Below the pieces are notes generated by a model. It made no database searches. It saw only the letters and a program-made list of their open reading frames with translations, and was not told where the DNA came from. A program made the translations under genes and the position numbers. A DNA stretch of 36,775 nt, taken from contig JAICKK010000012.1 in assembly GCA_025927955.1 (NCBI GenBank), positions 1 to 36,775 of the forward strand, read 5' to 3'. Source of the stretch: Nocardioidaceae bacterium (GTDB taxonomy: Bacteria; Actinomycetota; Actinomycetes; Propionibacteriales; Nocardioidaceae). Shown piece by piece: positions 1,468 to 18,191 of this stretch. The first letter of the stretch is position 1. Each line of letters begins with the position of its first letter.

Positions 1468-2229
1468 TCACAGTGTCGTCATCCCTCCGTCGACGCGGAA
1501 GATGGCGCCGGTGGCGAAGCCCGCTTCGTCACTGGCCAGGTAGACCATGATCCCCTCGACGTCCTGGGGACGGCCCGGGCGGCCGAGGGGGATCCGAGAG
1601 ACGATCGCGGCTCGGTCCTCGGTGTCCTCGGAGATCGCGGTGACCAGGGGGGTCTCGGTGTACCCGGGCACAACGGTGTTCACCCGGATGCCCTCGGCGG
1701 CGTAGGCGGCCGCGACGGCGCGTGCCATGCCGTGGATGCCGGCCTTGGAGCTGCTGTAGGCGGTGAAGTCCCTCCCCTCGCCGTTCAGCCCGGTAGGGCT
1801 GCCGGTGACGATGACGGACCCGCCGCGGGCACGCATCGCGCGAACGGCGTGCTTGAGGGTCAGGAACGTGCCGGTCAGGTTGACGTCGATGGTGCGTTGC
1901 CAGACGGCGAGGTCGAGGTCGGCCACCCGGGCGTCCCGGCCGAACAGCTGCACGCCGGCGTTCGCGACGACCACGTCGAGGTCGTAGCCGGCCGCGGCCG
2001 CGGCGGCGAAGCCCGCCTCCACCGCCGCCTCGTCGGCGATGTCCATCTCGACCGCGAGGGCGTCCGAGCCGGCCGCCCGCCGCCCGGCCCCCGCGCGAGC
2101 GGAGGCCAGGACGCCGGCCGCCAGCACCACCCGGGCTCCCTCGGCGAGGAACCGCTGCGCCACGCTGCGCCCGATGCCGGAGCCGGCGCCGGTCACCAGC
2201 GCGCTCCTGCCTGCCAGCCGTCCGCCCAT
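1468..2229 (-). CDS. SDR-family NAD(P)-dependent dehydrogenase (candidate apiose or tetritol dehydrogenase)
   Basis: A 253-residue classical short-chain dehydrogenase: cofactor motif TGAGSGIG at 13-20, NAG near 90, catalytic Ser144, Tyr158 and Lys162 (YSSSK), and a C-terminal GRPxxPxDV block and VDGG. The ATG at 2229 is chosen because GAGGAGG lies 8 bases upstream; a longer frame reaching 2265 would overlap apnL. It is the last gene of the oiaC-apnO-apnL operon, 32 bases after apnL. In the known apiose route the first step (D-apiose to D-apionolactone) is done by a Gfo/Idh/MocA enzyme, absent here, so this SDR may do that job. Alternatively it resembles the role of the mycobacterial D-threitol dehydrogenase. 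The end of strand beta-2 lacks a clear acidic residue, so NAD versus NADP preference is open. Confidence 0.85.
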   Translation of the reverse strand: MGGRLAGRSALVTGAGSGIGRSVAQRFLAEGARVVLAAGVLASARAGAGRRAAGSDALAVEMDIADEAAVEAGFAAAAAAGYDLDVVVANAGVQLFGRDARVADLDLAVWQRTIDVNLTGTFLTLKHAVRAMRARGGSVIVTGSPTGLNGEGRDFTAYSSSKAGIHGMARAVAAAYAAEGIRVNTVVPGYTETPLVTAISEDTEDRAAIVSRIPLGRPGRPQDVEGIMVYLASDEAGFATGAIFRVDGGMTTL

Positions 2230-2261
2230 CGCGTGCCTCCTCTGTCCCGTGTCCTGCGCCG

Positions 2262-3998
2262 TCACGTCAACCTCACCTCGGCAGTGGACCAGGCTTCGAG
2301 CTCCACCGACGCACTGCCGCCGTCCGGTCCCTGCACGTCGTACCGCATCGGCGTGTCTGCCAGCCGCGCGAGCACGACGCGCAGGCCGTCGGCGGTCCGC
2401 ACCGGGTAGGCCGCCACGCCGCCGGGCGCGCGCGTCGCAAGCACCTGGCAGCCGCGGAGCCGCGCGAGCACCGTGAGCAGCTCGCCGACGGGGTAGAGGC
2501 GGTCGGCGTCACCGATGCCGCCGGCGCCGGAGACCTCGTAGAAGCAGAGGCTCTCGACGCCGCGCCGGGTGAGGGCGCAGACGCTGCCGAGGGTCCACGC
2601 GGCGGTGAACCGCGACGGTTGCAGGGGGTCGGGCCGCGCAGAGGCCTGCCTGCCACTGGTCGCGACCGCGTTGAACCGCTGACGCAGCGTGACCGGGCCG
2701 AGGTGCACGGCGCGCCCTCCGGACAGCCGTACGGCGTCCCGGGCGACCGCCTCCTGCCCGGCGAGGCTGTCGACGATGTGGGGCACCTCGGCGGCGTGCA
2801 TCTGCGGCGTGATGCTGCAGGTCAGCGCCGGTGCGTCGGGCGGCAGGTCGCCGATGCGACGGTTGAGCTCGGCGAAGTGGGAGCGGGCGCCGGCGACGAG
2901 CGGCACGTCGGCCCCGTGTGCCGCCTTCAGCAGCGCCTCCCACAGCGGCCTGGTGGTGACGTGGCCGACGGCGTCGAACACGCCGATCCGCCCCAGTCGG
3001 GAGGGGTCGAGGAGCTCGACTGCGGCCCGGACGTCGGTCGGCTCCTGCGCCACGACCCGCACGTCGAGGGCGGCACCGAGGGAGTCGGCCTCGCGTGTCG
3101 CGGCCGCGAGCACTGCCGGCCAGTCGGGCTCGGCGCGGGTGAGCTCGACGAGCACCGCCGCGAAGCCGCTGTCGGGCTGAGCCCAGGCGGGCGCTGCCCC
3201 CGATCGCGGGGTGGCGCCGAGTGACAGCGCGGGGACGAGTGCGCGCGCGGCACCGGTGACGACCACCTGCTGTGCGCTGCTCGCTCGCGGTTCGGCGTGA
3301 ACGGTGGAGGCCCGGCCGGCAGCGTGCAGCCGGGCGGTTTGGTGCACCTGGTCACCCGGCGCGAGTTCGACGGGGAACGGCTCCGACAGCGGCGTGCTGT
3401 AGGTCTTGAACGACGCGTCCGTCCAGTTCCGCTGGTCCTCGGTCTCGAACACGTCACCGTCGAGGTCGAGAGCGGCTCGCACGCCCTCACGCTGCCAGCG
3501 GAGACCGCGGACGTCCCGGAACGGCTGGTGCGGGCTGATGGCCTCCGGCCAGGTCGCGGGTACGACGGAGCCGTCCGTGTGCACCACCTCCACCGGCCGT
3601 CCCGCGTCCCCGAGGGGGTGCAGCACGACGAGGCCGATCCGGTTGCGCCGGAACGCGGCCCGGGCGGTGCCGGCGAACGACACGGTGAGGCCGTCGCCCT
3701 CGACCGTGACCTCGACACGGCCGTCGTAGTCGAGCGGTCCCGTCGGGTCGGGACCACGGAACCGCAGCACCAGGGCGGCCGACCAGCCGTCCGGGCGACG
3801 GGACACCTGCCGGTCCACGACCGTGACAGGGACGGTGTTCCAGTCCTCGTCGCGGACCACCGGTCGGACCGCGCGCAGCAGCAGCGTCCCGTCGTACCGG
3901 ATGTCGGCGAGCTCCTCGCCGCGGAGCTCCGCCGACCACGGGCCGGCGCGCAGCGGCAGCGGCTCGGGCGGTCGCCTCGACTCGGGCAGGGCGCTCAC
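2262..3998 (-). CDS. apnL: D-apionate lactonase
   Basis: A 578-residue protein with the architecture I associate with D-apionate lactonase: an N-terminal beta-rich domain, a central TIM-barrel-like domain and a C-terminal beta domain. Recognisable strings include FETEDQRNWTDASFKTY in the N-terminal part, AHGADVPLVAGARSHFAELN and TCSITPQMHAAEVPHIVDSL in the middle, and LYPVGELL with a beta-rich tail. The family opens D-apionolactone to D-apionate in apiose catabolism. The GTG at 3998 is preferred because the open frame further upstream lies antisense-free but inside apnO in another frame; the gene then begins 8 bases after apnO stops. No strong Shine-Dalgarno is visible, so translational coupling is likely. 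Assignment comes from recalled family features plus the adjacent apnO and oiaC. Confidence 0.8.
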   Translation of the reverse strand: MSALPESRRPPEPLPLRAGPWSAELRGEELADIRYDGTLLLRAVRPVVRDEDWNTVPVTVVDRQVSRRPDGWSAALVLRFRGPDPTGPLDYDGRVEVTVEGDGLTVSFAGTARAAFRRNRIGLVVLHPLGDAGRPVEVVHTDGSVVPATWPEAISPHQPFRDVRGLRWQREGVRAALDLDGDVFETEDQRNWTDASFKTYSTPLSEPFPVELAPGDQVHQTARLHAAGRASTVHAEPRASSAQQVVVTGAARALVPALSLGATPRSGAAPAWAQPDSGFAAVLVELTRAEPDWPAVLAAATREADSLGAALDVRVVAQEPTDVRAAVELLDPSRLGRIGVFDAVGHVTTRPLWEALLKAAHGADVPLVAGARSHFAELNRRIGDLPPDAPALTCSITPQMHAAEVPHIVDSLAGQEAVARDAVRLSGGRAVHLGPVTLRQRFNAVATSGRQASARPDPLQPSRFTAAWTLGSVCALTRRGVESLCFYEVSGAGGIGDADRLYPVGELLTVLARLRGCQVLATRAPGGVAAYPVRTADGLRVVLARLADTPMRYDVQGPDGGSASVELEAWSTAEVRLT

Positions 3999-4006
3999 GC
4001 CGACGC

Positions 4007-4864
4007 TCAGCGGCGGATCGGCTCGGGCAGGTGCAGCATCGCCTGCAGGTTCCGGTCGAGCTCGTCGTCGTCGAAGATGACCTTCCAGTCGTCGCGGATG
4101 ATCCGGCTGCGGCCGTAGTCCATCGCGATCAGGCACGCGTCGGAGAACGGGTTGTCCCCGTTGAGCGCATTGGCCAGCGCCACCTGCGTGTGCCCGAGCA
4201 GGATCGCCCGGGCGGCCGGCTCCGGGACGCCCATGGTGTGCACCGCCTCGTGCAGCGCCTCCTTCAGGAAGTCCCCGACCATGCACGCCACCGTCTCCAC
4301 CAGGGTCGGCTCGCACTGCGCGAGCTGCTTGACCGTGACCCAGTGCACGTCGAGGACGGGGGCGTACATCGCCCGCACCACGGTCTCGGCCCTCCGCTGG
4401 GCCTCCGGGTCTCCGCCCTCGTAGGCGGCGAGCACGTCCTGTGGTGCTGCGATGCCGCCGAACGTGTCGGCGTACTCCTCGTCGGTGCGCCTCTTGAGGA
4501 AGATCGACGGGTGGCAGGGGTGCGCGACCGCGTAGTGGATGCCGTCGCGCTGCGTGAGCAGGTTCGCGTAGGCGGCGGCGGGGTCGAGGGTGAGCACGAC
4601 CGCTCCCTCCTGCAGCTGCGGCACGACGTCGGCGGTCACCGGCTGCAGGGCGATGTCCGGCACGGCCAGCACCACCACGTCGGCGTGCGCCACCGCCGCG
4701 GAGGTGTCGGTGACCTCGCGGCCGGCGGCGCGGGTGCGCTGCTGGCCGGCGGGCGAGCTCTCGGCATAGGCGACGTCGTGCTCGGTGCGCATCAGGTTGT
4801 CCGACACCCTCATGCCCATCTTGCCGCCCGCGCCGACGACGGCGATCGTGAGCTTCTCGGTCAT
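4007..4864 (-). CDS. apnO: D-apionate oxidoisomerase
   Basis: A 285-residue Rossmann-fold dehydrogenase with GAGGKMG at 11-17, an acidic DP pair in VLTLDPAAAY (94-95) and the distinctive AHPCHPSIF at 114-122. A helical domain with 6-phosphogluconate dehydrogenase-like character follows, as is typical of ApnO proteins often annotated as phosphogluconate dehydrogenase C-terminal domain proteins. The family oxidises and rearranges D-apionate to 3-oxo-isoapionate with NAD+. The ATG at 4864 overlaps the upstream oiaC stop as ATGA, and apnL follows 8 bases downstream, so the three are translationally linked. Acting between the lactonase product and the decarboxylase substrate, it is the central step of the non-phosphorylated apionate branch. 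Confidence 0.85.
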   Translation of the reverse strand: MTEKLTIAVVGAGGKMGMRVSDNLMRTEHDVAYAESSPAGQQRTRAAGREVTDTSAAVAHADVVVLAVPDIALQPVTADVVPQLQEGAVVLTLDPAAAYANLLTQRDGIHYAVAHPCHPSIFLKRRTDEEYADTFGGIAAPQDVLAAYEGGDPEAQRRAETVVRAMYAPVLDVHWVTVKQLAQCEPTLVETVACMVGDFLKEALHEAVHTMGVPEPAARAILLGHTQVALANALNGDNPFSDACLIAMDYGRSRIIRDDWKVIFDDDELDRNLQAMLHLPEPIRR

Positions 4865-5709
4865 GGGTTGTTCCCTCTCCGGTCGTCTGTCCGTTCCTCC
4901 CGCCCCGCGCCCGTTGGCGCGCGGCGGGCCCTGTCGTGCAGCCACTGCAGGCTGTGCCGGGTCCAGTCGTCCTCGACCCGGCAGGTGGTGGCGCTGTCGC
5001 CCTGCCACACCAGCCAGTGCTCGACGACCTGGCTGATCCCCCGCTCCTCGGGCCGGACCCGCGCGAACAGGTGCTCCAGGTCGAGCAGCCCCTCTCCCAG
5101 CGGTGCGCCGGCGAGCGTGAAGCCGACCCAGGCGGCCTGGCGGGTGAACGAGAAGTCCTTGACGTGCAGGTTCACGACGTGGTCGGCGGTGCGCTCGACG
5201 GTGTCGCAGGGATGCTCCAGCGCTGCGACGCAGTTGGCCGGGTCGAGACAGACGCCCAGTGCCGGGGAGTCCAGCGCCTCCACGACGTCCACGAGCCGCG
5301 CCGTGGAGATCTGCTCGTAGGTCTCCAGCGCCAGCACGACGCCGGCCCGCTCGTACGACGGCAGGACCGCACGCAGTAGCACCTCGGCGTCGTCCGCCTC
5401 GGATGCCGGGACCATCGAGCGAACCAGCCGCACGTCGAGCCGCTGGGCCAGGCCCAGGTAGCGCTCCAGGTGCTCGACGCCGATCCCCCTCGTACCGAGC
5501 TCGAGTCCCACACCGCGGCGTCCGGCCTCCTGGGCGAGGGCGAGCAGCTGTCCCCCGTCGTACTCCTCGACGGCCGGGTAGTCGCAGATCTGCAGGAGGT
5601 CGGCACCCCACTCCTGCGTGCGCGCCAGCATGTCCGCGAGCGACAGCGGCCGGCCGGCGGTGGCATGCCACTGCCAGAAGAAGGAGTACGTGCTCAGCCC
5701 GATCGTCAT
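4861..5709 (-). CDS. oiaC: 3-oxo-isoapionate decarboxylase (xylose isomerase-like TIM barrel)
   Basis: A 282-residue AP-endonuclease-2/xylose-isomerase-like TIM barrel. Likely metal ligands on successive strands are E129 (LALETYEQ), D156 (VCLDPAN), H182 (NLHVKDF) and E230 (QVVEHW). OiaC enzymes in this superfamily decarboxylate 3-oxo-isoapionate to L-erythrulose. The identification rests on the fold plus the neighbouring apnO and apnL; other sugar epimerases and isomerases share the fold, so certainty is moderate. The ATG at 5709 is preferred over a GTG at 5730 because it lies about 10 bases after a TAGGGT -10 element, giving a very short leader. First gene of the operon; its stop overlaps apnO as ATGA. 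Confidence 0.75.
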   Translation of the reverse strand: MTIGLSTYSFFWQWHATAGRPLSLADMLARTQEWGADLLQICDYPAVEEYDGGQLLALAQEAGRRGVGLELGTRGIGVEHLERYLGLAQRLDVRLVRSMVPASEADDAEVLLRAVLPSYERAGVVLALETYEQISTARLVDVVEALDSPALGVCLDPANCVAALEHPCDTVERTADHVVNLHVKDFSFTRQAAWVGFTLAGAPLGEGLLDLEHLFARVRPEERGISQVVEHWLVWQGDSATTCRVEDDWTRHSLQWLHDRARRAPTGAGREERTDDRRGNNP

Positions 5710-5719
5710 CTCACGCGAG

Positions 5720-5762: not shown

Positions 5763-5800
5763 GCGTGCGAGCAGGGGTGCCGCCCGATATCGTCACTGCC

Positions 5801-6577
5801 GTGACCTCGGATCCGCTGGCCTCGATCGAGCCGGTCAGCGTCGTGTCCGTGGTGACGCGCCGCCTGCTGGACTACTTCACCTCGGGGCGGCTCGAGCCCG
5901 GTGCCCGACTGCCCGCGGAGCGACGGCTCGCGGAGTCCCTCGGCGTCGGGCGCTCCGCGGTCCGCGAGGCGCTGGCGGCGCTCGAGCTGCTGGGCGTCGT
6001 CTCGGTGCGTCCGGGCTCCGGCACGTACCTGAAGGGCAGTGCCTCCGAGCTGCTTCCCCAGACGCTGAGCTGGGGGGTCCTCCTCGGCGAACGCCGTACC
6101 CGCGAGCTGATCGAGGTCAGGCATGGTCTCGAGGTGCGGGTGGCGCGCCTGGCCGCCGAGCTGGCCACGGCCGAGACGTCGGCGGCTCTCGACGAGACGA
6201 TCGAGACGATGACGACCCACAGCGAGGACTTCCCCGCGTTCGTCGAGGCCGACATGCGGTTCCATCAGCTGCTGGCGGCCAGCACCGGCAACGTCACTCT
6301 GGCCGACCTGCTCACCACCGTGCGCAGCCTGATCCGGGTGTGGGTGGAGCGCGGGGTGCGCGATGCCCACCACACGAGGCTGACCGTCGCCGAGCACACC
6401 GCGATCGTCGCGGCCGTCCGAGCCTGCGACGCCGACGCCGCGGGGGCCGCGATGGACGCGCACATGGTCTCCGCACGCGGCCGGCTGCTGCACCTCCTGG
6501 AGGGCACCGGGCCGGCGCCGTCCGGTGCACCAGAGACGCCGGGTCAGGCGTCGTCGGCCAGGTCGCTCGACTCGTAG
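5801..6577 (+). CDS. FadR-family GntR transcriptional regulator (FCD effector domain)
   Basis: A 258-residue protein. The N-terminal winged helix spans about 15-78, with recognition segment [29 protein letters not shown] and wing RPGSGTYL. A helical FCD effector domain follows, whose metal and ligand-binding residues are visible: D151, H155, H199 and H221. The GTG at 5801 is chosen because TATCGT (5788-5793) lies 7 bases upstream, which suggests a leaderless transcript; an in-frame GTG at 5777 is an alternative. It is divergent from the oiaC operon and faces the operator dyad at 5741-5762, so it most likely controls the apionate genes. Its 3' end overlaps the 3' end of convergent derI by 34 bases. 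The ligand is unknown; apionate, 3-oxo-isoapionate or a later intermediate are candidates. Confidence 0.85.
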
Positions 6578-7026
6578 GCGGTGATCGCGTCGACCTTCTC
6601 CGCGGATGCGGACGTGGGATCGAACCGGTAGTCCAGCCACTCGCGGGCGAGGCGGCGGGCGAGCTCGAGACCCACCACCCGCTCGCCGAAGCACAGCACC
6701 TGGGCGTTGTTGCTCAGCACCGCCCGCTCCACCGAGTAGCTGTCGTGGGCGGTGACGGCGCGGATGCCCCGCACCTTGTTCGCGCTGATCGCCACCCCGA
6801 GGCCCGTTCCGCAGACCAGCAGCGCGCGGTCCGCCTTGCCCTCGGAGATGAGGCGCGCGGCTGCGACGGCCACGTGCGGGTAGTGGGTGTCCTCGTCCTC
6901 GGACACACCGACGTCGATCACCTCGGCCACGCGGTCGTCGGCGCGCAGGTCGGCGGCGATCGCGTCCTTGTAGCGGACGCCGGCGTCGTCCCCACCGACC
7001 ACGACCCGCAGCTTGTTCCCAGTCAC
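6544..7026 (-). CDS. derI: RpiB/LacAB-family isomerase, probable D-erythrulose 4-phosphate isomerase
   Basis: A 160-residue RpiB-type sugar-phosphate isomerase with catalytic Cys72 in LLVCGTGLG and the phosphate and ring-opening segments around [20 protein letters not shown] and [16 protein letters not shown]. The usual GSDHAG motif of ribose-5-phosphate isomerase B reads GGDDAG here (11-16), with Asp in place of His, consistent with a different substrate. In tetritol and apionate catabolism DerI converts D-erythrulose 4-phosphate to D-erythrose 4-phosphate, which enters the pentose phosphate pathway. The GTG at 7026 has GAAGGAG 7 bases upstream. It is the last gene of the transporter-kinase operon. 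Plain RpiB activity cannot be excluded from sequence alone, but the context argues for DerI. Confidence 0.8.
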
Positions 7027-7067: not shown

Positions 7068-8792
7068 TCACTCGCCCGCGAGCACGCCGCCCACGGCCTC
7101 CACACACATGCCCAGCGACACCGCACCCGCGTCCGGCGTGCCGAGGCTGCGCTCCGCCAGAGGCCGGGCGCGCCCCACCTTCGGACGCAGCTGCGCGGTC
7201 GCCTGCGCCGCCGCCTTCGCCCGCTCCACCGCGACCGCCCACGCCTCGCTCAGGGGCCGGTCGCCCTCCACTCCCGCCGACAGTGCCTCGGCGAAGGGCA
7301 GCAACGCGTCGAGCATGGTCTTGTCCCCCGGGCTCGCCCCGCCGAGGCGGACCAGCGCGTCGTACCCGGCGCGGACACCGTCGGCGACCACCCGGCCCGT
7401 CGGCCGGCCCTGGTCGCCGAGCACCTTGCCGAGCGCGGCGAGGGCCGCGCCCCAGAGGACCCCGGAGGTGCCGCCCGCCTTCGCGGCCCACGCGTCACCG
7501 GCGGCGGTCAGCGTCGTGCCCGGCCCGGCGCCGGCGCCGGTCGCCTCACGAGCCGCCTCGACCGCAGCGCCGGTGCCTCGCACCATGCCGCGTCCGTGGT
7601 CGCCGTCGCCGGCGACCGCGTCGATGCGGCCGAGCTCCTCCTCCGCGGCGGCCACCGTGGCTGCCATCGCCTCCAGCGCCGCCAGGACAGTCGCTGCCGC
7701 GCGGCGGGCCTCCTCATCGGCCGGGCCGGAGCTCGTCCCCGCGGTGGCGGCGGCGAGGTCCGTACCGGTGCGCCGCTCCCCCTCACCGGAGGAGACCGGA
7801 GCACCCTTGCGGTAGGCCGGGCTGTCGGCCGGGGCCGACCAGAGCCTCTCGAGCTCCTCGTCGAGCCACATCACGGTCAGGGAGCAGCCCGCCATGTCGA
7901 GGCTCGTGACCAGCTCGCCGACCTCGGGCTCCACGACCTCCAGACCGGCCTCGCGCAGCAGCCGGGCCACGGTGCCCCAGACGATGAAGAGCTCTTCGTA
8001 CTTCGTGCGTCCCAGGCCGTTGAGGATCGCGGTCACCCTCGTGCTCGCACCGTCGGGTGCGTCGGCGAGGACGCCCTCCACGAGCATCGTGGCCAGCTCC
8101 GCCGCGGTGGGCATGGCGTGGTCGGCGATGCCCGGCTCGCCGTGGATGCCGAGACCCAGGCCCATGCGGCCGGGCTCGACCCGGAACAGCGGCTCGTCGG
8201 CCCCCGGCATGGTGCACCCGTCGAAGGCGACCCCGAGGGTGCGGGTCCGGTCGTTGGCGTGCTCGCCCGCTCGCTGCACCCCCTCGAGGTCGTAGCCCGC
8301 CTCGGCGGCGGCCGACATCGCCTTGAACACCGTGAAGTCGCCCGCGATGCCTCGGCGCTTCGCCCGCTCGTCCGCAGGCGCGCTGGCGATGTCGTCGGTG
8401 ACGAGGACGTAGCGCGCCTCGATGCCCGCGTCGCCGAGCCGTTCGACGGCCTGGTTGAAGTTCATCACGTCACCGGCGTAGTTGCCGGTGCTGAACACCA
8501 CGCCGGCACCACCGTCAGCGGCCCTCCCCACCGACGCCGCATCGGCGGCCGAGGGTGAGGTGAACACGTTGCCGACCACGGCTCCGTCGGCGAAGCCCGG
8601 CCCCACGATGCCGCAGAAGGCCGGGTAGTGGCCGGAGCCACCACCCACGACCACCGCGACCTTGCCCGAGCGGGTCCGGTTCGCTCGCACCACGCCGCCG
8701 GGTACGGCGGACACGTAGCGCTGGTTCGCGTCGACGAAGCCGACGAGCATGTCCTCGGTGAACGTTGCCGGGTCGTCGAAGAGGCGAGTCAT
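7068..8792 (-). CDS. Dihydroxyacetone kinase-type (DhaK-DhaL fusion) erythrulose kinase, copy proximal to derI
   Basis: A 574-residue single-chain ATP-dependent kinase. The DhaK part (about 1-330) has [10 protein letters not shown] from residue 50, GNYAGD at 103-108 and His217 (GIHGEP), the histidine that binds the ketose carbonyl covalently. A linker leads to the DhaL ATP-binding part (about 370-574), with Mg-binding AVAGDGDHG and GGTSG. In tetritol and apionate pathways such proteins are L-erythrulose 1-kinase (LerK) or D-erythrulose 4-kinase (DerK); which one this is cannot be read from sequence. It is a paralogue of the kinase at 10885-12627, with key residues at identical positions. RBS AAAGGAC precedes the ATG. 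Located between eltD and derI in the operon. Confidence 0.88.
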
Positions 8793-10028: not shown

Positions 10029-10883
10029 TCAAGGCTGCGGTTCGGCCGCCCGGTCGCTCCTGGCACGGTGACGGGCGCTCACCGGCGCGACGACGACGTC
10101 GATGCCCTGCGAGCGCAGGCGTCTGACGTGCTCGGCACGCGTGCCGGCGTCGACGATCACGGTGTCGAACTCCGAGAGCGGCATGATGGCGTGCAGCGCA
10201 CGTCTGTCGAACTTGGTGTGGTCGGCGAGGAGGATCCGGGTCCGGGCCGAGTCGAACATGGCCCGCTTGGTGTCGACCGTCGCGACGGTCTGGTGGAAGG
10301 CGACGTCGTCGGTGATGGCCGACGTGGACATGATCGCGGTGTCCGCGCGGAGGTTGGCGATGGCCTGGGTGGTCATGCGGCCCATGAAGGCGCTGCACCA
10401 GTTGTAGTACTCGCCGCCGAGGGCGAGCAGCGTGATGCCGCGGACGTTGCTGAGCTCGTTGATGAGCGTCAGCACGTTGGTGATGACGGTGAGTGGCGTC
10501 TTGGCCGGCAGGTACTTGGCCATGTGCAGCACCGTCGTCGAGTCGTCGAGGAAGATCGCCTGGTTCGGCTCGACGAAGTCCATCGCCGCCAGAGCGAGAG
10601 CGTCCTTCTCGGCGAGTTGCCTGCTCGAGCGGTAGACGTCGCTGGACTCGATGAGGCTGGTGGACGTGGCGGTCGCCACCCCGCGGCCCTTGCGCAGGAT
10701 GCCGCGGTTCTCGAGCTCGTCGAGGTCCCGGTGCACCGTCATCAGGCTGGTCCCGAACCGCTCGACGAGCTGCTCGATGCGCACCGTGCCCTCCGCGATG
10801 ACCACGTCGGCGATCGCGCGCTGACGCGCCAGCTGCCGGGTCTGGCGCGAGTCGGAGCGGGGGGACTCCGCGGCGATGGCCAT
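10029..10883 (-). CDS. DeoR-family transcriptional regulator
   Basis: A 284-residue DeoR-type regulator. The N-terminal winged helix spans about 22-70 (RIEQLVERFGTSLMTVHRDLDELENRGILRKGRG). A DeoR sensor domain follows, with the family strings FLDDSTTVLHMAKYL, LGGEYYNWCSAFMG and ADHTKFDRRALHAIMPL. These proteins bind a phosphorylated sugar, here plausibly a tetrulose phosphate made by the flanking kinases. The start lies 1 base after the kinase stop, so the two are co-transcribed and translationally coupled. The likely target is the palindromic site upstream of the operon (17234-17258), which would make the circuit self-regulating; this link is inference. Confidence 0.88.
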   Translation of the reverse strand: MAIAAESPRSDSRQTRQLARQRAIADVVIAEGTVRIEQLVERFGTSLMTVHRDLDELENRGILRKGRGVATATSTSLIESSDVYRSSRQLAEKDALALAAMDFVEPNQAIFLDDSTTVLHMAKYLPAKTPLTVITNVLTLINELSNVRGITLLALGGEYYNWCSAFMGRMTTQAIANLRADTAIMSTSAITDDVAFHQTVATVDTKRAMFDSARTRILLADHTKFDRRALHAIMPLSEFDTVIVDAGTRAEHVRRLRSQGIDVVVAPVSARHRARSDRAAEPQP

Positions 10884-10884
10884 C

Positions 10885-12627
10885 TCACGCGTCCCGTACG
10901 GCGGGGCGCTCGGCGAGCACGCCGGCGACAGCGGTGACCGCCAGGGCGAACGACACGGCGCCGGGGTCCGGGGTACCGAGGCTCCTCTCCGCGTGCGGCC
11001 GGGCCCGCCCCACGCGCGGCAGCAGGTCCGCGGTCGCCTCGGCGGCCGTGGTCGCCGTCCCGGCCGCGCGGCGCCAGGCGTCGGCGAGCGACCCGCCTGC
11101 CACGACGCGCCGGTCCAGCTCCTCGGTGAACGGCATGATCGCGTCCAGCATGGTCTTGTCTCCGACAGCCACCTTGCCGAGGCGCGCCACCGCCGCCGCC
11201 GCGCTTCGGACACCGGAAGCGACCGTCGCCGCGTCGGGCCTCGTGTCGTCGCCCGTCTCGTCCGCGAGAGCACGCAGCGCCACGCCCCACAGTGCGCCGG
11301 AGGTGCCGCCCGCCCGGTCGGCCCAGGCGTCCCCCGCCGCCCGCAGCGTGGCTCCCGCACCGGCTCGATCCTCGGCCGCACGCCGCGCCGCCCCCAGCGC
11401 GGCGGCGGCACCGCGCTGCATGCCGATCCCATGGTCGCCGTCGCCGGCGACGGCGTCCAGCCGTCCCAGCTCCTCGGCGTTCTCGTCGACCACCTCGACG
11501 ACCGCACGCAGCGCGACCACCACCACCTGCGCAGCCTCCTGTGACTCCGCGCTCGCCTCAGGGGCGAGGACGGAGGGGGCCGCGTCCTCGCTGGCCGCCT
11601 CCTCGTGGTCGAGCGGCTCGAGGACTCCGCGACGGTAGGCCGGCGCCTCCGCTGACGACGTCCAGGCCGCCTCCAGCTCGTCGTCGAGCCAGCACAGGGT
11701 GAGCGACACGCCGGCCATCTCGAAGCTGGTCACCAGCTCGCCGACCTCCGGAGCCACCACGCCGAGCCCCTCGTCGTCGAGCAGCCGGGCGACCCGACGG
11801 TAGGTGACGAACAGCTCCTCGGACTTCACCGAGCCCAGCCCGTTGAGGATCACAGCGACGCGGCCGCCACGCTGGTCACCAGCGGAGCCGGGGCGCTCGG
11901 AGAGCAGCCGGCCCACCAGCAGCTCCGCGAGCTCGTCGGCCGCGGGCATCGACGTCTCCTCGAGGCCGGGCTCACCGTGGATGCCCATCCCGATGGCCAT
12001 CCGGCCGACGGGGACCGAGAACAGCGGCTCGCGTGCCCCGGGGAGCGTGCACCCGGAGAAGGCGACCCCGAGGGTGCGGGTCCGTTCGTTCGCGCGGTTC
12101 GCGAGCGTCCAGACGTCCTCGAGGGACCGTCCCTGCTCCGCCGCCCAGGCGGCGGCGCGGAAGACGACGAGGTCACCGGCGACCCCGCGTCGCTTGTGAC
12201 GCTCGCCGTCGCCGGCGCTGGAGACGTCGTCGGTGACGGTCACCGTCCGGCACGCGATGCCGTCGGCGACGAGCCGCTCCTGGGCCTGGCCGAAGTTCAG
12301 CACGTCGCCGGCGTAGTTGCCGTAGCAGAGCAGCACGCCCGCATCGGAGGCCACCGCTCGAGCCACCGAGTAGACCTGCTGTGCCGACGGGGAGGCGAAG
12401 ACGTTGCCCATCGCGGCGCCGTGGGCGAGGCCTCTGCCGACGAGCCCGGCGAACGCGGGGTAGTGGCCCGACCCGCCGCCGACGACGAGCGCGACCTGGC
12501 CTGCCGGGGTGCGGGTCCTCCGTGCGACACCGCCGTCGACTCTGCGCACCAGGGCGAGGTTCGCGGCGACGAACCCTTCGGTCATCTCGTCTGCGAACTC
12601 GGCAGGGTCGTTCAGGAGATAGCTCAT
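10885..12627 (-). CDS. Dihydroxyacetone kinase-type (DhaK-DhaL fusion) erythrulose kinase, copy following the transporter
   Basis: A 580-residue fused DhaK-DhaL kinase with the same landmarks as its paralogue: [10 protein letters not shown] from residue 50, GNYAGD at 103-108, His217 in GMGIHGEPG, and AVAGDGDHG in the DhaL half. A Glu/Ala/Ser-rich linker joins the halves. It should phosphorylate L- or D-erythrulose with ATP; two such kinases of opposite enantiomer preference (LerK and DerK) are known from actinobacterial tetritol clusters. The ATG at 12627 follows GAAGGGA; the open frame further upstream crosses a strong hairpin and is not likely coding. First enzyme gene after the transporter, 1 base ahead of the DeoR gene. 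Confidence 0.88.
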   Translation of the reverse strand: MSYLLNDPAEFADEMTEGFVAANLALVRRVDGGVARRTRTPAGQVALVVGGGSGHYPAFAGLVGRGLAHGAAMGNVFASPSAQQVYSVARAVASDAGVLLCYGNYAGDVLNFGQAQERLVADGIACRTVTVTDDVSSAGDGERHKRRGVAGDLVVFRAAAWAAEQGRSLEDVWTLANRANERTRTLGVAFSGCTLPGAREPLFSVPVGRMAIGMGIHGEPGLEETSMPAADELAELLVGRLLSERPGSAGDQRGGRVAVILNGLGSVKSEELFVTYRRVARLLDDEGLGVVAPEVGELVTSFEMAGVSLTLCWLDDELEAAWTSSAEAPAYRRGVLEPLDHEEAASEDAAPSVLAPEASAESQEAAQVVVVALRAVVEVVDENAEELGRLDAVAGDGDHGIGMQRGAAAALGAARRAAEDRAGAGATLRAAGDAWADRAGGTSGALWGVALRALADETGDDTRPDAATVASGVRSAAAAVARLGKVAVGDKTMLDAIMPFTEELDRRVVAGGSLADAWRRAAGTATTAAEATADLLPRVGRARPHAERSLGTPDPGAVSFALAVTAVAGVLAERPAVRDA

Positions 12628-12702: not shown

Positions 12703-12707
12703 GTGTT

Positions 12708-13700
12708 CTACTTCTTGAGCGTGAACGGACCGCTGAAGTCGTTCACCTTCGCCTTGGTGATGAGGATGCAGTCGAAGGCCTGCTTCTCAGCCGAGGCGCC
12801 GGTCTTGCCGGTCTTGAGGTACTGGTCGGCCTCGTCGACCGCCTTCTTGGCGAAGCTCGCCACCGGCTGCAGCACGGTGTACTGCAGCTCGCCCTTCTTG
12901 ATCGCGTCGACCGCGTCGGGCGACCCGTCGAAACCGCCGACCTTGACCTGCTTGAGCTTGCCGGCCTCCTTCAGCGCCGCGATCGCACCGAGAGCCATCT
13001 CGTCGTTGCCGGCGATCACACCCGAGATCTTGGGGTGCGCCTGCAGCAGGGACTGCATCTTGTCGTGGCCCTGCGTCCGGTCCCAGTTCGCGACCTCCTT
13101 GCCGACCTTCTTCAGGCCGGGGTACTGCGAGATCACGGTCGAGTAGCCGTTGGAGCGCGTCTGGGCGTTGTTGTCCGACGGTGCGCCGTACAGCTCGACG
13201 TAGTCGGCCTTCTTCGGCATCACCTTCACGAACTGCTGGGCACCGAGAGCGGCGCCCTGCGCGTTGTTGGAGACCAGCTGCGCCTTGGCGAGGCCCTCCT
13301 GGTTGATCTCGGCGTTGACGAGGAACACCGGGATCTTCGCGGCGTTCGCCTTCTTGACCGCACCGATGGAACCGCTGGCGTTCGCGGGGTCGAGGATGAT
13401 CGCGACCGACTTGTTGGTGATCGCGGTGTCGATCAGCGTGCTCTCCGTGTTGGTGTCGCCCTTGGACGCGGCGACGTTCGCCTTGTAGCCGAGACTCTTG
13501 GCCTCGGCCGCGGCAACGCTGCCCTCCGTCTTCCAGTAGGGGTTCGACGGGTCGTTGACGATGATCGTGATCAGGCCGCCCTTGGTCGACTTGCCCGACC
13601 CTCCGGACGCGTTGTTGCTCGACGAACCGCCGGAGCCGCAGCCGGCGAGGGTGAGGGTGGCGCTCACGAGGAGCGTGAGCAGAGCTGTACGGGACTTCAT
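12708..13700 (-). CDS. Sugar ABC transporter substrate-binding lipoprotein (RbsB type)
   Basis: A 330-residue precursor with a lipoprotein signal (MKSRTALLTLLVSATLTLAGC, lipid-modified Cys21) and a Ser/Gly-rich linker. A periplasmic-binding-protein type I (RbsB-like) fold follows: GLITIIVNDPSNPYW, KSVAIILDPANASGS, GVIAGNDEMALGAIAAL and VGGFDGSPDAV. It captures a small sugar or polyol outside the membrane for the permease and ATPase encoded just upstream. Given the operon, tetritols (erythritol, L-threitol), erythrulose or apiose-derived acids are the candidate ligands. RBS AAGGAAG precedes the ATG. Followed closely by a strong hairpin. Confidence 0.9.
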   Translation of the reverse strand: MKSRTALLTLLVSATLTLAGCGSGGSSSNNASGGSGKSTKGGLITIIVNDPSNPYWKTEGSVAAAEAKSLGYKANVAASKGDTNTESTLIDTAITNKSVAIILDPANASGSIGAVKKANAAKIPVFLVNAEINQEGLAKAQLVSNNAQGAALGAQQFVKVMPKKADYVELYGAPSDNNAQTRSNGYSTVISQYPGLKKVGKEVANWDRTQGHDKMQSLLQAHPKISGVIAGNDEMALGAIAALKEAGKLKQVKVGGFDGSPDAVDAIKKGELQYTVLQPVASFAKKAVDEADQYLKTGKTGASAEKQAFDCILITKAKVNDFSGPFTLKK

Positions 13701-13765: not shown

Positions 13766-14905
13766 TCAGCTCGTGGTCCGCTCCGCTTGCGGAGAGGCGG
13801 TGTCGACGGGGCCGGACTGCCGGAAGGCGCTCTGTCCGTCGCCGCTCGACGACGACGGCTTCCTGCGGCCCCGGTACTGGATGGCGTTGAGCAGCACGGC
13901 GAGGATGATCACCGCGCCGGTGAACACAGTCTGCCAGTACGCCGAGACGCCGACGATCACGAGACCGTCCGACAGGAAGCCGATCACGAAGCCGCCCAGC
14001 AAAGTGCCTCGCACGTTGCCCCGTCCGCCGGTCAGGGCGGCGCCCCCGATGACGACGGCGGCGATGGCGGTCAGCTCGTACGACGTGCCGGCGGTCGGGC
14101 TGGCCGAGGTGAGCTCCGAGGACAGGATCAGCCCGGCGATCGATGCGCATGCGCCGGAGGCCACGTAGACCCAGACCTTGACCCGACGAACCGGCACACC
14201 GGAGAGCTCTGCTGCGCGCTCGTTGCCACCCGAGGCGTAGAGCCAACGTCCGAAGACGCTGCGGTGCAGCAGCACGCTGACCACGATGGCGACCACGATC
14301 ATCACGATGACGCCGATGGGGACGTCGAGGATGCGGTTGAAGCCGAGCCAGTTGAAGCCCGTGTTCCCCAGCTCGGGCTTGCCGTCGAGGTTGTTGTAGG
14401 TCAGTCCGTTGGTCATCAGCAACGCGATGCCTCGCACGACGTACAGCATCCCGAGCGTGGCCACGAACGGCGCCACCTTGAACCTGGAGATGAGAACACC
14501 GTTGACCAGGCCGATCACCGCGCCCACCAGGATCGCCAGGATCACCACGACCCACACCGCGGGGAAGATCGTCACGTCACCGAACGCCTTGAGGTGGACC
14601 CCTGTCATCAGCCAACCGGCGACCACGCCCGACAGCCCGAGCGTCGAGCCGACGGTCAGGTCGATGCCCCCGTTGAGGATGACCAGCAGCATGCCGATCG
14701 CCAGCAGTGCGTACACCGCGACGTGCGAGGCCATGGTCAGCAGGTTGTTCGCGGTCAGGTAGTTCGGCGAGAGGATCGAGAACACGACGATGATCACGAT
14801 CAGGGCGAGGAAGGCTCGCCCCTCGAGCAGGATCTTCCCCAGGTCGAAGCCGCCGGTGAAGGCGGACGGGCGGCTGTTGTTGCGCCCTTCGCTGGACGTA
14901 GCCAT
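13766..14905 (-). CDS. Sugar ABC transporter permease (RbsC type)
   Basis: A 379-residue, highly hydrophobic permease with about 8-10 membrane segments. Family landmarks are NGGIDLTVGSTLGLSG (about 78-93), which matches the conserved GIDLSVGS block of RbsC-like permeases, and the cytoplasmic coupling segment SGGNERAAELSGVPVRRVK. The C-terminal tail is hydrophilic, Ser-rich and probably cytoplasmic. A single permease gene implies a homodimeric channel. The ATG at 14905 follows AAGGAAC. It lies between the ATPase and binding-protein genes in the usual order for this transporter family. Confidence 0.92.
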   Translation of the reverse strand: MATSSEGRNNSRPSAFTGGFDLGKILLEGRAFLALIVIIVVFSILSPNYLTANNLLTMASHVAVYALLAIGMLLVILNGGIDLTVGSTLGLSGVVAGWLMTGVHLKAFGDVTIFPAVWVVVILAILVGAVIGLVNGVLISRFKVAPFVATLGMLYVVRGIALLMTNGLTYNNLDGKPELGNTGFNWLGFNRILDVPIGVIVMIVVAIVVSVLLHRSVFGRWLYASGGNERAAELSGVPVRRVKVWVYVASGACASIAGLILSSELTSASPTAGTSYELTAIAAVVIGGAALTGGRGNVRGTLLGGFVIGFLSDGLVIVGVSAYWQTVFTGAVIILAVLLNAIQYRGRRKPSSSSGDGQSAFRQSGPVDTASPQAERTTS

Positions 14906-14946
14906 CGCTGATTCCGTTCCTTGTGTGTCGACCTGCGTCGACGTGG

Positions 14947-16488
14947 TCAGACGACCACGGCTTCGCCGGAGGCGGCCATGATCTCTTCCTTGCTGATGTC
15001 GGGGCCGAACTCGGCGGAGATCCTGCCGCGACGCATCACGACGATGCGGTGGGCGATGCTCAGGCACTCGCCCACCTCGGACGTGGAGAAGACGACGGCG
15101 ATTCCCTGTTCAGCGCGCTCGGCCAGCAGCCGGAAGACCTCCGCCTTCGCGCCGACGTCGATGCCGCGGCTGGGCTCGTCGAGGAGGATCACCTGCGGGT
15201 CCGTGGCGAGCATCTTCCCGATGACGACCTTCTGCTGGTTGCCCCCCGACAGCGAGCCGATGGCAGCCGCGCCACCCTCGGTCTTGACGCGGACGTCGTC
15301 GATCGACCGTTCGACGCGCTCCTGCTCGCCGCCCCTCGACAGGAACAGCCCCTTCACGAAGGACTGAAGGCTGGCCAGCGTGAGGTTCATGCCGACCGAC
15401 ATGGTCTGCACGAGCCCGTCTCGCTGCCGGTCCTCGGGGACGAGGCACAGACCGGCACGGATCCTCTCCGCGATCGACAGCCTCGAGACGTCCTTGCCGT
15501 TGAGGCCCACCCTTCCGCTGGTCATCGGCACCCGCCCCGCGACCGCCTCGAGGAGCTCGGTACGACCGGCGCCCATCAAGCCGTAGATGCAGACGATCTC
15601 GCGGGCACGGACCTCGAGCGAGAGGCCGTCGACGACGGACCGTTGCGGGTTCTCGACGTCGGCGACGCTGACCCCCTCGATGGAGAGGGCAGGGGCACCG
15701 AACTCGTATCCGGTCGGGACCTCACCCAGGCTGAAGTGCTCGCCGACCATCCGACGGACGATCCACTCCAGGTCGATGTCCTTGGCCTCCGCGGTGGCCG
15801 TGATGTTGCCGTCCCGCAGCACGACCGCGTAGTCGGTGATCTGCAGGGCCTCCTCGAGATGGTGCGAGATGTACACGATCGACACGCCGTGACGCTTGAG
15901 GTCCTCGATGACCTTGAAGAGCACCTCCACCTCGGAGGCGCTCAAGGCCGACGTCGGCTCGTCCATGATCAGGATCCGCGCGTTCACCGACAGCGCTCGG
16001 GCGATCTCGACGATCTGCTGCTGGCCGAGGCGCAGGTCGGCGACCAGCGTCGACGGGGAGATCTCCTCCTCCAGCCTCTCCATCAGCTCGCGCGTCTGGC
16101 GGGCCTCCTCGGTGAAGTCGATCCCCGTTCCGGTCCGGATCTCCCGTCCCATGAAGACGTTGTCACGCACGCTGAGGTTCGGCGCGAGGCTCAGCTCCTG
16201 GTGGATGATCGAGATGCCGCGGTCCCTGGCGTCGACGGTGGAGTTGAAGCTCACCGTCTCGCCGTGCAGGACGATCTCCCCGGCCGTCGGCTGCTCCACC
16301 CCGGACAGGATCTTCATCAGGGTCGACTTGCCCGCGCCGTTCTCGCCGAACAGCGTGGTGACCTTTCCCCGGTGGATGTCGAAGTTCACGCCCTTCAGCG
16401 CCCGGGTGCCGCCGTAGGTCTTCACCACGTCTCGCGCGGACAGCACGACCTCGTCGGTGCCGCTGTCGGGGTCGATGTCGTCGGTCAT
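14947..16488 (-). CDS. Sugar ABC transporter ATP-binding protein (RbsA/XylG type, two NBDs)
   Basis: A 513-residue duplicated ATPase. The first domain has Walker A GENGAGKST (48-56), signature LRLGQQQ (152-158) and Walker B ILIMDEP (172-178). The second has the degenerate GLMGAGRT (303-310), signature LSGGNQQ (413-419) and ILLDEP (434-439), the usual asymmetry of RbsA-like proteins. It powers import through the RbsC-type permease. The ATG at 16488 overlaps the DUF2291 stop as ATGA, so the short upstream in-frame extension is not used. Confidence 0.93.
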   Translation of the reverse strand: MTDDIDPDSGTDEVVLSARDVVKTYGGTRALKGVNFDIHRGKVTTLFGENGAGKSTLMKILSGVEQPTAGEIVLHGETVSFNSTVDARDRGISIIHQELSLAPNLSVRDNVFMGREIRTGTGIDFTEEARQTRELMERLEEEISPSTLVADLRLGQQQIVEIARALSVNARILIMDEPTSALSASEVEVLFKVIEDLKRHGVSIVYISHHLEEALQITDYAVVLRDGNITATAEAKDIDLEWIVRRMVGEHFSLGEVPTGYEFGAPALSIEGVSVADVENPQRSVVDGLSLEVRAREIVCIYGLMGAGRTELLEAVAGRVPMTSGRVGLNGKDVSRLSIAERIRAGLCLVPEDRQRDGLVQTMSVGMNLTLASLQSFVKGLFLSRGGEQERVERSIDDVRVKTEGGAAAIGSLSGGNQQKVVIGKMLATDPQVILLDEPSRGIDVGAKAEVFRLLAERAEQGIAVVFSTSEVGECLSIAHRIVVMRRGRISAEFGPDISKEEIMAASGEAVVV

Positions 16489-17147
16489 GACACGGTCAGC
16501 TTCGCGGGGGTCACGAGCCACGCGTTCGGGTTGATCAGCTGGAAGGCGCCGACCACGGAGACCGTCTTTCCCGTCAGGTGCGCGGTGTCGACCTTCGCGA
16601 GCACCTGCTTCTTGAGCTGCGCGTTCAACGCGGACGCGGCGTTCTGGTAGTCGATCTGGTTCGTGAAGTCGCCGAACTTGACCGTCCCGGGAGCGTCACG
16701 CAGGTCCGTGCCGTTGATGGCCGGCCCGGTCTGGATGCGGATGAGCAGGTTCTTGGGAAGCCCGGCCACCTTCACCGGGTAGATGCCGGAGGCGCCCTTG
16801 CCGACGACACCTGTGAACTTGACGGACACCTCCGGCCCGGCCCCGCTGCCGGCGTCGATGCCGTACTTCTTCCCGGCAGCCGTCGGGCTCTTGGCCACCG
16901 CAGCCGCCAGCGTGGACGCGTCCACCGCCCGCTTCTCGATGGCGGCCTGCACCTTGGGGAAGTTCTCCTTGCCCCACGTGGCGGGGGAGAACGCCTGGGG
17001 GCCGGCACCCAGCGTCGAGCCCTTGCCGACCACCTTCGTGTCGAGCGCCATGGCCACCAGCAGCACGACGACCACGACCGCGAGAATCACGCGCTTGGCC
17101 TTGGTGCTCAGGCCGGCCGGGCCGCGCACGGTCGACGGCGCGCTCAC
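16485..17147 (-). CDS. DUF2291 family membrane-anchored protein
   Basis: About 220 residues: one N-terminal membrane segment (KAKRVILAVVVVVLLVAMAL, about 15-35) followed by an extracytoplasmic domain with TWGKENFPKVQAAIEKRA, YPVKVAGLPKNLLIRIQTGPAINGTDLRDA and FGDFTNQIDYQNAASALN. This is the DUF2291 pattern, a family of unknown function found beside RbsABC-type importers for polyols and pentoses; a transporter accessory role is inferred. The GTG at 17147 is preferred since it overlaps the stop of a short leader ORF (GTGA) that carries a strong ribosome site, while no good site precedes the GTG itself. First structural gene of the operon, ATGA-coupled to the ATPase. Confidence 0.78.
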   Translation of the reverse strand: MSAPSTVRGPAGLSTKAKRVILAVVVVVLLVAMALDTKVVGKGSTLGAGPQAFSPATWGKENFPKVQAAIEKRAVDASTLAAAVAKSPTAAGKKYGIDAGSGAGPEVSVKFTGVVGKGASGIYPVKVAGLPKNLLIRIQTGPAINGTDLRDAPGTVKFGDFTNQIDYQNAASALNAQLKKQVLAKVDTAHLTGKTVSVVGAFQLINPNAWLVTPAKLTVS

Positions 17148-17185: not shown

Positions 17186-17233
17186 GGGGACGGCTCCTCT
17201 GCAGGTCGCATGCGACGGTATGGACCGGAGCCC

Positions 17234-17277
17234 GTGTGATAACTGTGTTATCTAACACTCGGCTCAAGTGAAAAGTA
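17234..17277 (-). promoter_or_regulatory. Transporter operon promoter with two overlapping palindromic operators
   Basis: Two overlapping dyads: GATAAC-TGT-GTTATC (17238-17252) and GTGTTA-TC-TAACAC (17245-17258). The block is AT-rich against a GC-rich background. On the minus strand TTACTT (17277-17272) and TAGATA (17253-17248), 18 bases apart, make a plausible promoter whose -10 lies inside the dyads. The DeoR regulator encoded in the operon is the obvious candidate binder. Motifs are seen; the regulator assignment is inference. Confidence 0.55.
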
Positions 17278-17377
17278 AGGTACGCGGCGTCGACGGGGCC
17301 TGTCAACGGTCCGCGCCGAGGACTTCGGCGCGCGTGCGGCGGCGTGCCGGCGAGCCGAGGTGCCGGCCTGGCGGATG

Positions 17378-17393
17378 CCGGGCCGGCGCCCGG
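17378..17393 (-). terminator. Short GC hairpin directly after lerI
   Basis: CCGGGC-GCCG-GCCCGG forms a 6-bp stem with a 4-base loop immediately after the lerI stop on the minus strand. There is no U tract, so it is at best a weak terminator or 3' end stabiliser. Confidence 0.35.
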
Positions 17394-18191
17394 TCACGCC
17401 CGGGCGGAGGAGGAGCCGGGCGCCGTCGCCGCGTGCCGGCCCGCGATGTCCAGGAAGGTCAGGAAGCCCTGGACGTCCCACGCCGCCCGGCCGATGAACA
17501 GCCCGTCGGTGTGGGGATCGTCGAGCAGGTCCTCGGCGTTGGCGGTGGTGACGCTGCCGCCGTACAGGAGCGCCCGGCAGCCCTGTCCAGAGCCCACGCG
17601 CGCGGCCTCCAGGCAGAGGGCTGCCAGGACCGGGGACACCTCGTCACGGGTGGCGGCCCGACCGGCCTCGCCGATCGCCCAGACAGGCTCGTAGGCCACG
17701 ATCGCGCCCGCCACCTCGTCGGCGCGAAGCCTGGACAGCGCCGCTGTCAGCTGCGCGGTCACGAACTCCTCCGCGCCGCCGCACTCGCGCACCGTCGACG
17801 GCTCCCCGACGCAGATGAGAGGGATCAGCCCCGCGTCCACAGCCGCCCGCGCCTTGCGGGACACCGACTCGTCGGTCTCACCGAACAGCTCGCGGCGTTC
17901 GGAGTGGCCCATCTCCACCAGCCGCGCACCGGCGTCGGCCGCCATGCGCATCGAGACCTCCCCCGTGCCGGCACCCTCGGGTGCCCAGTGGGCGTTCTGC
18001 GCGCCGAGCAGCACCCGGGACGCCGCGGGCATGCAGTCGCGAACGGCGGCGAGGCTGGTGTGCGCGGGTAGCACGAAGGGCTGGACGCCGTCGGGCACGG
18101 CGGCCGCCGCCAGGACGCCCGCGAACGCCCGCGCCTCGGCGATCGTCTTGGTCATCTTCCAGCTGGTACCCACCCAGAGAGCTCCGGCCAC
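17394..18191 (-). CDS. lerI: Triosephosphate isomerase-family L-erythrulose 1-phosphate isomerase
   Basis: A 265-residue TIM-type isomerase: Lys12 (GTSWKMTKT), His96 (EMGHSERR), Glu168 (VAYEPVWAIGE) and the phosphate-binding GGSV and IGRA segments. True triosephosphate isomerases have GNWKM with Asn next to Lys; here the residue is Ser in GTSWKM, a pattern I associate with EryH/LerI proteins that convert L-erythrulose 1-phosphate to D-erythrulose 4-phosphate. The GTG at 18191 has TAGCGT (18203-18198) 6 bases upstream, which points to a leaderless transcript of its own. It lies directly upstream of the transporter-kinase operon and supplies the step between kinase and DerI. Confidence 0.83.
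   Translation of the reverse strand: MAGALWVGTSWKMTKTIAEARAFAGVLAAAAVPDGVQPFVLPAHTSLAAVRDCMPAASRVLLGAQNAHWAPEGAGTGEVSMRMAADAGARLVEMGHSERRELFGETDESVSRKARAAVDAGLIPLICVGEPSTVRECGGAEEFVTAQLTAALSRLRADEVAGAIVAYEPVWAIGEAGRAATRDEVSPVLAALCLEAARVGSGQGCRALLYGGSVTTANAEDLLDDPHTDGLFIGRAAWDVQGFLTFLDIAGRHAATAPGSSSARA

Follow-up and report, generated by a model that had tools for sequence, protein, structure and literature searches.

We have analysed by computation a stretch of 36,775 nucleotides (the window), which is a whole contig of the metagenome-assembled genome (MAG; 3.79 Mb, 284 contigs, 86.9% complete, 2.3% contamination) of a Nocardioidaceae bacterium. Positions 1468–18191 of the window hold a block of 14 minus-strand genes and one plus-strand gene, defined by open reading frames and family profiles, in which predicted D-apionate catabolic genes adjoin genes related to those of polyol operons. 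A sequence-only reading of this DNA had described the block as an island, under two regulators, in which apionate and tetritol degradation are merged and share a lower half. The genes that it named are all present, and so are the two regulators; to its list must be added a short-chain dehydrogenase/reductase (SDR) gene and a gene for a DUF2291 lipoprotein. Its lerI corresponds to a triosephosphate isomerase (TIM)-type gene and its derI to an RpiB gene.

Gene content and layout of the block

Read along the minus strand, the order is TIM, DUF2291, Rbs-type ATPase, permease, binding protein, DhaKL kinase 2, DeoR, alcohol dehydrogenase (ADH), DhaKL kinase 1 and RpiB, followed by GntR/FCD on the plus strand and then by OiaC, ApnO, the ApnL-like protein and SDR, again on the minus strand. 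Two tight runs can be recognized, one from OiaC to SDR (gaps of -4, an overlap of oiaC with apnO, +2 and +32 bases, with assumed starts for OiaC and ApnL) and one from DUF2291 to RpiB (gaps of -37 to +100 bases, with assumed starts for DUF2291 and DeoR). Better starts for OiaC (5709), ApnL (3998) and DeoR (~10850) shift some of these gaps, by between a few and several tens of bases.

1468..2229, minus strand: SDR dehydrogenase, predicted D-apiose 1-dehydrogenase (PF13561/PF00106)
2262..3998, minus strand: ApnL-like protein, predicted D-apionolactonase, read from the GTG at 3998 (NF049900, motif)
4007..4864, minus strand: ApnO, predicted D-apionate oxidoisomerase (PF16896; identity to proteins of apionate loci)
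4861..5709, minus strand: OiaC, predicted 3-oxo-isoapionate decarboxylase, TIM barrel (PF01261; adjoins ApnO)
5801..6577, plus strand: GntR/FCD regulator, divergent from oiaC, its 3' end overlapping the 3' end of rpiB (PF00392, PF07729)
6544..7026, minus strand: RpiB-type isomerase, putative derI (PF02502; TIGR02133 above cut-off)
7068..8792, minus strand: DhaKL kinase 1 (DAK1), of the EltD-cluster type (PF02733, PF02734; tree clade)
8845..9969, minus strand: Zn-dependent medium-chain dehydrogenase/reductase (MDR) ADH, predicted EltD, erythritol/L-threitol dehydrogenase (PF08240, PF00107; neighbourhoods)
10029..10850, minus strand: DeoR-family regulator, start uncertain (PF00455, PF08220)
10885..12627, minus strand: DhaKL kinase 2 (DAK2), of the type of other polyol operons (PF02733, PF02734; tree clade)
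12708..13700, minus strand: Rbs-type solute-binding protein, NPYW/NA subtype (PF13407; solved relatives, pocket positions)
13766..14905, minus strand: Rbs-type permease (PF02653)
14947..16521, minus strand: Rbs-type ATPase (PF00005, two stretches)
16485..17147, minus strand: DUF2291 lipoprotein, start uncertain, the frame being open to 17306 (PF10054, 151 bits)
17245..17258, between the TIM and DUF2291 genes: perfect palindrome GTGTTATCTAACAC, candidate operator (DeoR) of the importer operon
17394..18191, minus strand: TIM-type isomerase, putative lerI (best solved match 11ef)

The palindrome GTGTTATCTAACAC has no other occurrence in the 2.48 Mb of DNA searched (a match in locus L188 is the same place). 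A candidate GntR operator, TGGTCAACCA at 5743, was rejected as not conserved, counterparts near gntR being found in 3 of 72 distinct loci, two of which are the window and a second copy of the island.

This second copy lies in the same MAG, on contig C22 at 50708–62415 (L009, L010). It is 11.7 kb long with 88.4% DNA identity, and covers the block from the SDR gene to within the binding-protein gene, where the contig end cuts it. The ratio of nonsynonymous to synonymous substitution rates (dN/dS) between window and copy is 0.07 to 0.40 over the 10 genes compared, and the single stop met in the comparison falls in OiaC, within a ragged C-terminal end. These values, together with the matches to curated families, indicate that the block is more than a chance assemblage. 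The copy may be a true duplication or a co-binned relative. Could the join between the modules be an artefact of assembly or binning? The 284 contigs, the contamination and the very presence of two island copies in one MAG would be compatible with this, but the same junction occurs in both copies, which makes an assembly error hardly tenable, the reading frames are under purifying selection, and similar joins are found in the isolates L065, L096 and L074. We regard an artefact as highly improbable.

Mosaic ancestry of the block

How usual is a lower half, made of a DAK kinase and of RpiB- and TIM-type isomerases, beside apionate genes? Our survey yielded 494 pattern-matched stretches. ApnO relatives are encoded by 448 of these, of which we retained the best 80; judged by title, their loci are nearly all actinobacterial, one being titled Planococcus. 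The locus counts given here use the 64 of these best 80 that have at least 6 kb on each side, with a neighbour window of 9 kb. DAK, RpiB and TIM all lie within 9 kb of ApnO in 53/64 loci, TIM and DAK without RpiB in 2/64, RpiB and TIM without DAK in 1/64 and none of them in 8/64, while a gene of the major facilitator superfamily (MFS) is present in 43/64. In Pantoea sp. At-9b, the genes for MFS, DAK, TIM, OiaC and ApnO stand in a row, with RpiB nearby on the opposite strand. A shared lower half thus belongs to the usual apionate operon, and its position next to apionate genes is not in itself a merger; on this point the sequence-only reading lacks support in the form in which it was put.

The ancestry of the block is nevertheless mosaic. 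When best identities are sorted by source, GntR, OiaC, ApnO and ApnL have homologues in ApnO loci only. The binding protein, permease, ATPase, DeoR and DAK2 have their best matches (78, 69, 71, 68 and 68%, respectively) all in other polyol-importer operons, DAK1 and RpiB have theirs in EltD clusters (68 and 77%), TIM reaches 66% in EltD modules with an importer versus at most 45% elsewhere, and the ADH 82 and 81% in two EltD groups versus at most 29% elsewhere. In a tree of 46 kinases, the 26 apionate-operon ones, selected from 60 such loci with a DAK match, form one side of a branch (support 83), and both window kinases fall outside it. DAK1 groups with four EltD-cluster kinases (support 100), within a wider clade of eight EltD-cluster kinases, four EltD-module kinases and one divergent kinase of the polyol loci that we call group C (support 99). 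DAK2 groups with five kinases of group-C polyol loci (support 99), and the window TIM with four TIMs of EltD modules (support 100). The placings were the same in earlier trees, which had 74 to 82 rows.

The surroundings of the ADH in other genomes agree with these placings. Matches at 1e-90 occur in 12 of the 296 genomes of the class, its own included. Ten ADH neighbourhoods (19–20 kb) of the 11 other genomes contain DAK and RpiB in nine cases and ApnO in none; the tenth, with an ADH of 53% identity, has neither DAK nor RpiB. Homologues of 74–82% lie with DAK and RpiB, and identity is 45% to a protein annotated as erythritol/L-threitol dehydrogenase. PPE genes, a mark of mycobacteria, are present in three of these genomes (3 of 6 genomes tested); there the ADH lies near two matches to ATP-binding cassette (ABC) ATPases, DAK and RpiB, an arrangement resembling the eltD cluster of Mycobacterium smegmatis. 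ADH homologues of 45 to 53% are also found in 21 plasmid records, and four of the plasmid regions were viewed: in Salmonella and Pseudalkalibacillus, RpiB, DhaK, DhaL and an MFS gene adjoin the ADH homologue, Providencia has an Rbs-type importer only, and Caballeronia has none of these enzymes. Among the ApnO-bearing genomes searched, which stand for 50 of the 80 retained loci less two, 5/48 have the ADH, which in Saccharopolyspora sp. HNM0986 lies ~10 kb from a complete apionate operon. ApnO is itself present in 3 of the 58 relatives searched, with the window's own genome counted.

Identities, trees and ADH neighbourhoods together support a composite origin of the block, from an apionate module and from polyol-type modules that would have supplied the kinases and at least one isomerase. 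To this extent the merger claimed by the sequence-only reading stands; it is not singular, as polyol operons of the importer type adjoin apionate modules in Microbacteriaceae too.

Predicted pathway and importer cargo

We propose that the block is a composite catabolic island with erythrulose as its hub, a proposal that we consider probable and in which all the substrates and both regulatory links are what we infer from sequence. The SDR would convert D-apiose into D-apionolactone, which the ApnL-like protein would open to D-apionate; ApnO would then form 3-oxo-isoapionate, and decarboxylation by OiaC would give L-erythrulose. A C4 polyol, most likely erythritol or L-threitol, would enter through the Rbs-type importer and be oxidized to erythrulose by the EltD-type ADH. 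Erythrulose from the two sides would be phosphorylated by the DhaKL kinases, the TIM-type isomerase would form D-erythrulose 4-phosphate from L-erythrulose 1-phosphate, and the RpiB-type isomerase would yield D-erythrose 4-phosphate for the pentose phosphate pathway. The apionate run would be regulated by GntR/FCD, and the run of importer and kinase genes by DeoR. The TIM assignment is consistent with its best solved match, 11ef, an L-erythrulose-1-phosphate isomerase (215.9 bits, the next being a triosephosphate isomerase at 157.2), and another TIM in the genome outscores it on PF00121. RpiB exceeds the cut-off of TIGR02133 with 207.6 bits.

Several observations weigh against this proposal, and those on the importer, given with its cargo below, are of the same kind. 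The trees are quick searches with SH-aLRT support and with long branches flagged. RpiB obtained no starred grouping, its nearest rows being of the EltD type, and its best identities are close across sources (77, 75, 72 and 69%); the identity of DAK2 also differs little by source (68 versus 65%). The TIM scores above the triosephosphate isomerase cut-off as well (303.4 versus 293), and RpiB reaches 152.7 of the 240 bits of NF051858 (DerI), a model whose short name points to Rhizobiales. Finally, the ApnL-like protein scores 230.7 bits against a cut-off of 750 for NF049900 (D-apionate lactonase), a model on which the Rhizobium ApnL homologue obtains 1052.3.

The apnL of the sequence-only reading is therefore a distant ApnL homologue, although the block G..FE.EDQRNW.DAS.KTY is common to it and the Rhizobium protein and is found in 17/17 aligned sequences. 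The PGDH_C domain of ApnO gives 195.4 bits with PF16896, and the protein is 59% identical to that of the Pantoea apionate locus and 41% to that of the Rhizobium one, with 5t57 as best solved match (210 bits). OiaC is 51% identical to the Pantoea TIM-barrel protein that adjoins ApnO. The low ApnL score and the modest identity of ApnO to the Rhizobium protein might suggest that the upper run acts on another sugar acid, branched or unbranched, and that the names ApnL, ApnO and OiaC mislead. We give this reading little chance: ApnO occurs in loci that also encode the high-scoring Rhizobium ApnL and an annotated OiaX, OiaC lies near ApnO in 62/64 loci, and in a Jiangella ApnO locus (L038, 19240–20831), where no OiaC was found, the other branch of the pathway is represented by a homologue of OiaX (43%) and a fragment of a homologue of OiaK.

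Which compound would enter the upper run? SDR and ApnL occur together in 35 of the 64 loci, neither occurs in 26 and ApnL occurs alone in 3, so that the SDR is always accompanied by ApnL (35/35). This is expected if both prepare apionate from apiose, and it points to apiose, not apionate, as the entry compound. No match to the Gfo/Idh/MocA Pfam family, to which the apiose dehydrogenase ApsD presumably belongs, was found among the window frames scanned. The SDR is predicted to be a D-apiose dehydrogenase, a candidate for non-orthologous replacement; on the model for the D-threitol dehydrogenase GolD/DthD it obtains 149.2 of 286 bits, below the cut-off.

As regards the importer, the binding protein carries NPYW and Asn-Ala at RbsB positions 15–16 and 89–90, positions which we take to be sugar contacts in Escherichia coli RbsB. 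This signature (NPYW/NA) is shared by 10/10 members of the window's subtype, and NPFF with Asp-Arg (NPFF/DR) is present in the 9/9 others, including Rhizobium and E. coli RbsB. The window protein thus departs from the apiose signature (NPFF, Asp-Arg) of the Rhizobium etli 5ibq type. Within 9 kb, 9/10 NPYW/NA loci have an MDR dehydrogenase gene versus 0/8 NPFF/DR loci (Fisher p = 0.0004), an association that is uncorrected for relatedness and for which two of the three queries came from group-C or ApnO loci. The NPYW/NA locus lacking the gene, L096, has just 3 kb on one side. That the subtype goes with a dehydrogenase gene favours a polyol cargo, and a neutral open-chain polyol would fit.

Alternatively, all the genes might serve D-apiose in a single pathway, in which the importer takes apiose, the ADH and the SDR are dehydrogenases of the apiose side that act either as alternatives or one after the other, and the second kinase serves as a spare. 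Identity between the importer subunits and their counterparts in the Rhizobium apionate locus is 48 to 54%, and the closest solved binding proteins are 5ibq/4ry0 (269 bits), not the M. smegmatis polyol binders 4rsm and 4rs3 (89 bits each); 5ibq reportedly holds apiose. In the 87%-complete MAG we found no second importer for apiose or apionate: the closest match to the apionate-operon MFS has 31% identity, and at 1e-70 there is no additional binding protein, so the uptake of apiose may fall to the island importer. G037, Planosporangium, Amnibacterium and M. halotolerans also have no match to this MFS at 1e-30. On the other hand, ADH orthologues occur with DAK and RpiB and without ApnO in the nine of ten neighbourhoods mentioned above, the importer subtype is found in complete operons apart from ApnO, and in Rhizobium and Agromyces it is the other subtype, NPFF/DR, that adjoins ApnO. 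Because of the split between importer subtypes and the association with dehydrogenases, we prefer the composite island, and a single pathway for apiose seems unlikely to us. Elsewhere, NPFF/DR-type importer genes without ApnO nearby (L123, L132 and L133) lie beside weak transketolase matches (29–35%), perhaps as part of another sugar route.

Known systems and related loci

The chemistry of the island is known and no new chemistry is needed; the interest lies in the joining of two gene sets. The OiaC branch of D-apiose/D-apionate catabolism was reportedly described by Carter et al. 2018, and the EltD/LerK/LerI/DerI tetritol pathway of M. smegmatis is said to come from Huang et al. 2015. As in the OiaC branch, the window encodes an ApnL-like protein, ApnO, OiaC, a kinase and two isomerases leading towards D-erythrose 4-phosphate, but an SDR replaces the Gfo/Idh/MocA dehydrogenase, ApnL is distant, and the kinases and the TIM are of polyol-cluster lineage. 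With the tetritol pathway it has in common a predicted EltD-like ADH, DhaKL and TIM- and RpiB-type isomerases, and orthologues of ADH, DAK1 and RpiB lie together in the three PPE-bearing genomes; the importer, in contrast, is another one, and the genes are joined to apionate genes. The Rhizobium bangladeshense apionate locus (OiaX branch) likewise has ApnO, ApnL, DUF2291, an Rbs-type importer, TIM, RpiB, DhaK and DhaL, but differs by having, in place of OiaC, both OiaX and a four-carbon acid sugar kinase, a Gfo/Idh/MocA dehydrogenase, an NPFF/DR binding protein and the lack of an EltD-type ADH. The roles of EltD, LerK, LerI and DerI in the tetritol pathway are given in portions of PMC10733421, and those of tetritol enzymes also in portions of PMC12780249; a portion of PMC11747546 names the OiaK/OiaX-type route, and Carter et al. 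2018 is cited in a portion of PMC6302742. A merger of apionate and tetritol genes was not found in the open-licence papers that were searched.

We followed eight OiaC-type modules that lack a lower half within 9 kb (L021, close to a contig end, L027, L050, L052, L069, L074, L087 and G037). A polyol operon lies well apart in five of them, is adjacent in one, and other kinase clusters are present in two; the five well-apart operons share the window's importer subtype. In G037 the operon is 45 kb from the apionate module. Planosporangium has an EltD-type operon on another contig than ApnO, and Nakamurella has one divided between a 12.9-kb contig and the start of the ApnO contig, ~65 kb from ApnO. 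The operons of Amnibacterium and Microbacterium sp. AK031, on other contigs, contain other MDR dehydrogenases, and that of M. halotolerans is the adjacent one, ~10 to 17 kb from ApnO. In Agrococcus, TIM, RpiB and DAK are ~31 kb away from the apionate module, and in Leucobacter, DAK and TIM are 9 to 10 kb away. In several Microbacteriaceae (L065, L096, L024, L036 and L074), the apionate module has a polyol-type importer operon next to it, which indicates that such mergers recur; only the window and its second copy were seen to combine ApnO with an EltD-type ADH, the two kinases and the importer within a single block.

Complete operons with one or two MDR dehydrogenases, DUF2291, an Rbs-type importer, DAK, RpiB, TIM and DeoR were observed in Amnibacterium and Microbacterium (L194, L195 and L196). 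Their importer subtype, DUF2291, DAK2 and DeoR are as in the window, but their MDR dehydrogenases are not of the EltD type and their TIM is of another lineage. We know of no printed description of operons of this composition.

The window may contain an island at a tRNA gene. DNA similarity to the same-genus genomes G001, G002 and G003 is lost at the 3' end of tRNA-Ser(GGA) or immediately beyond it (307–394; similarity over window 1–399), and none of 15 window flank proteins was found in the 20–40 kb around that site in G002 and G003. Similarity to G005, which continues to 594, speaks against a clean break, and an attachment site was discarded, the last 14 to 30 bases of the tRNA not being repeated elsewhere in the window. 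Between the tRNA and the catabolic block, 321–1300 holds a weak, below-cut-off match to a FitA-like antitoxin and a PIN-domain gene, perhaps a toxin-antitoxin pair. On the other side, a GntR regulator with a sugar-binding domain, a GH38 alpha-mannosidase and a binding-protein ABC transporter (18958–26542) form a separate cluster for the use of mannosides, followed by genes for a PAS-GGDEF-EAL protein (26618–28966) and a UvrD-like helicase (31046–33217).

More tentatively, and with somewhat more doubt than confidence, we suggest that in several actinobacterial families apionate modules lost the erythrulose kinase and isomerases that they once had and depend on a polyol module with an undescribed NPYW/NA class of importer for C4 polyols, that the joins arose more than once, that three sources met in the block studied here, and that erythrulose is a shared and perhaps cross-inducing hub. 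If the composite island is real, a single set of kinases and isomerases would serve, within one locus, to convert both a branched sugar of the plant cell wall and C4 polyols into D-erythrose 4-phosphate. The SDR would then be a candidate non-orthologous apiose dehydrogenase, and the NPYW/NA signature, if it holds, would help to predict the cargo of Rbs-type importers. The relatives in which the two modules lie apart offer a natural test of the dependence of apionate modules on polyol modules.

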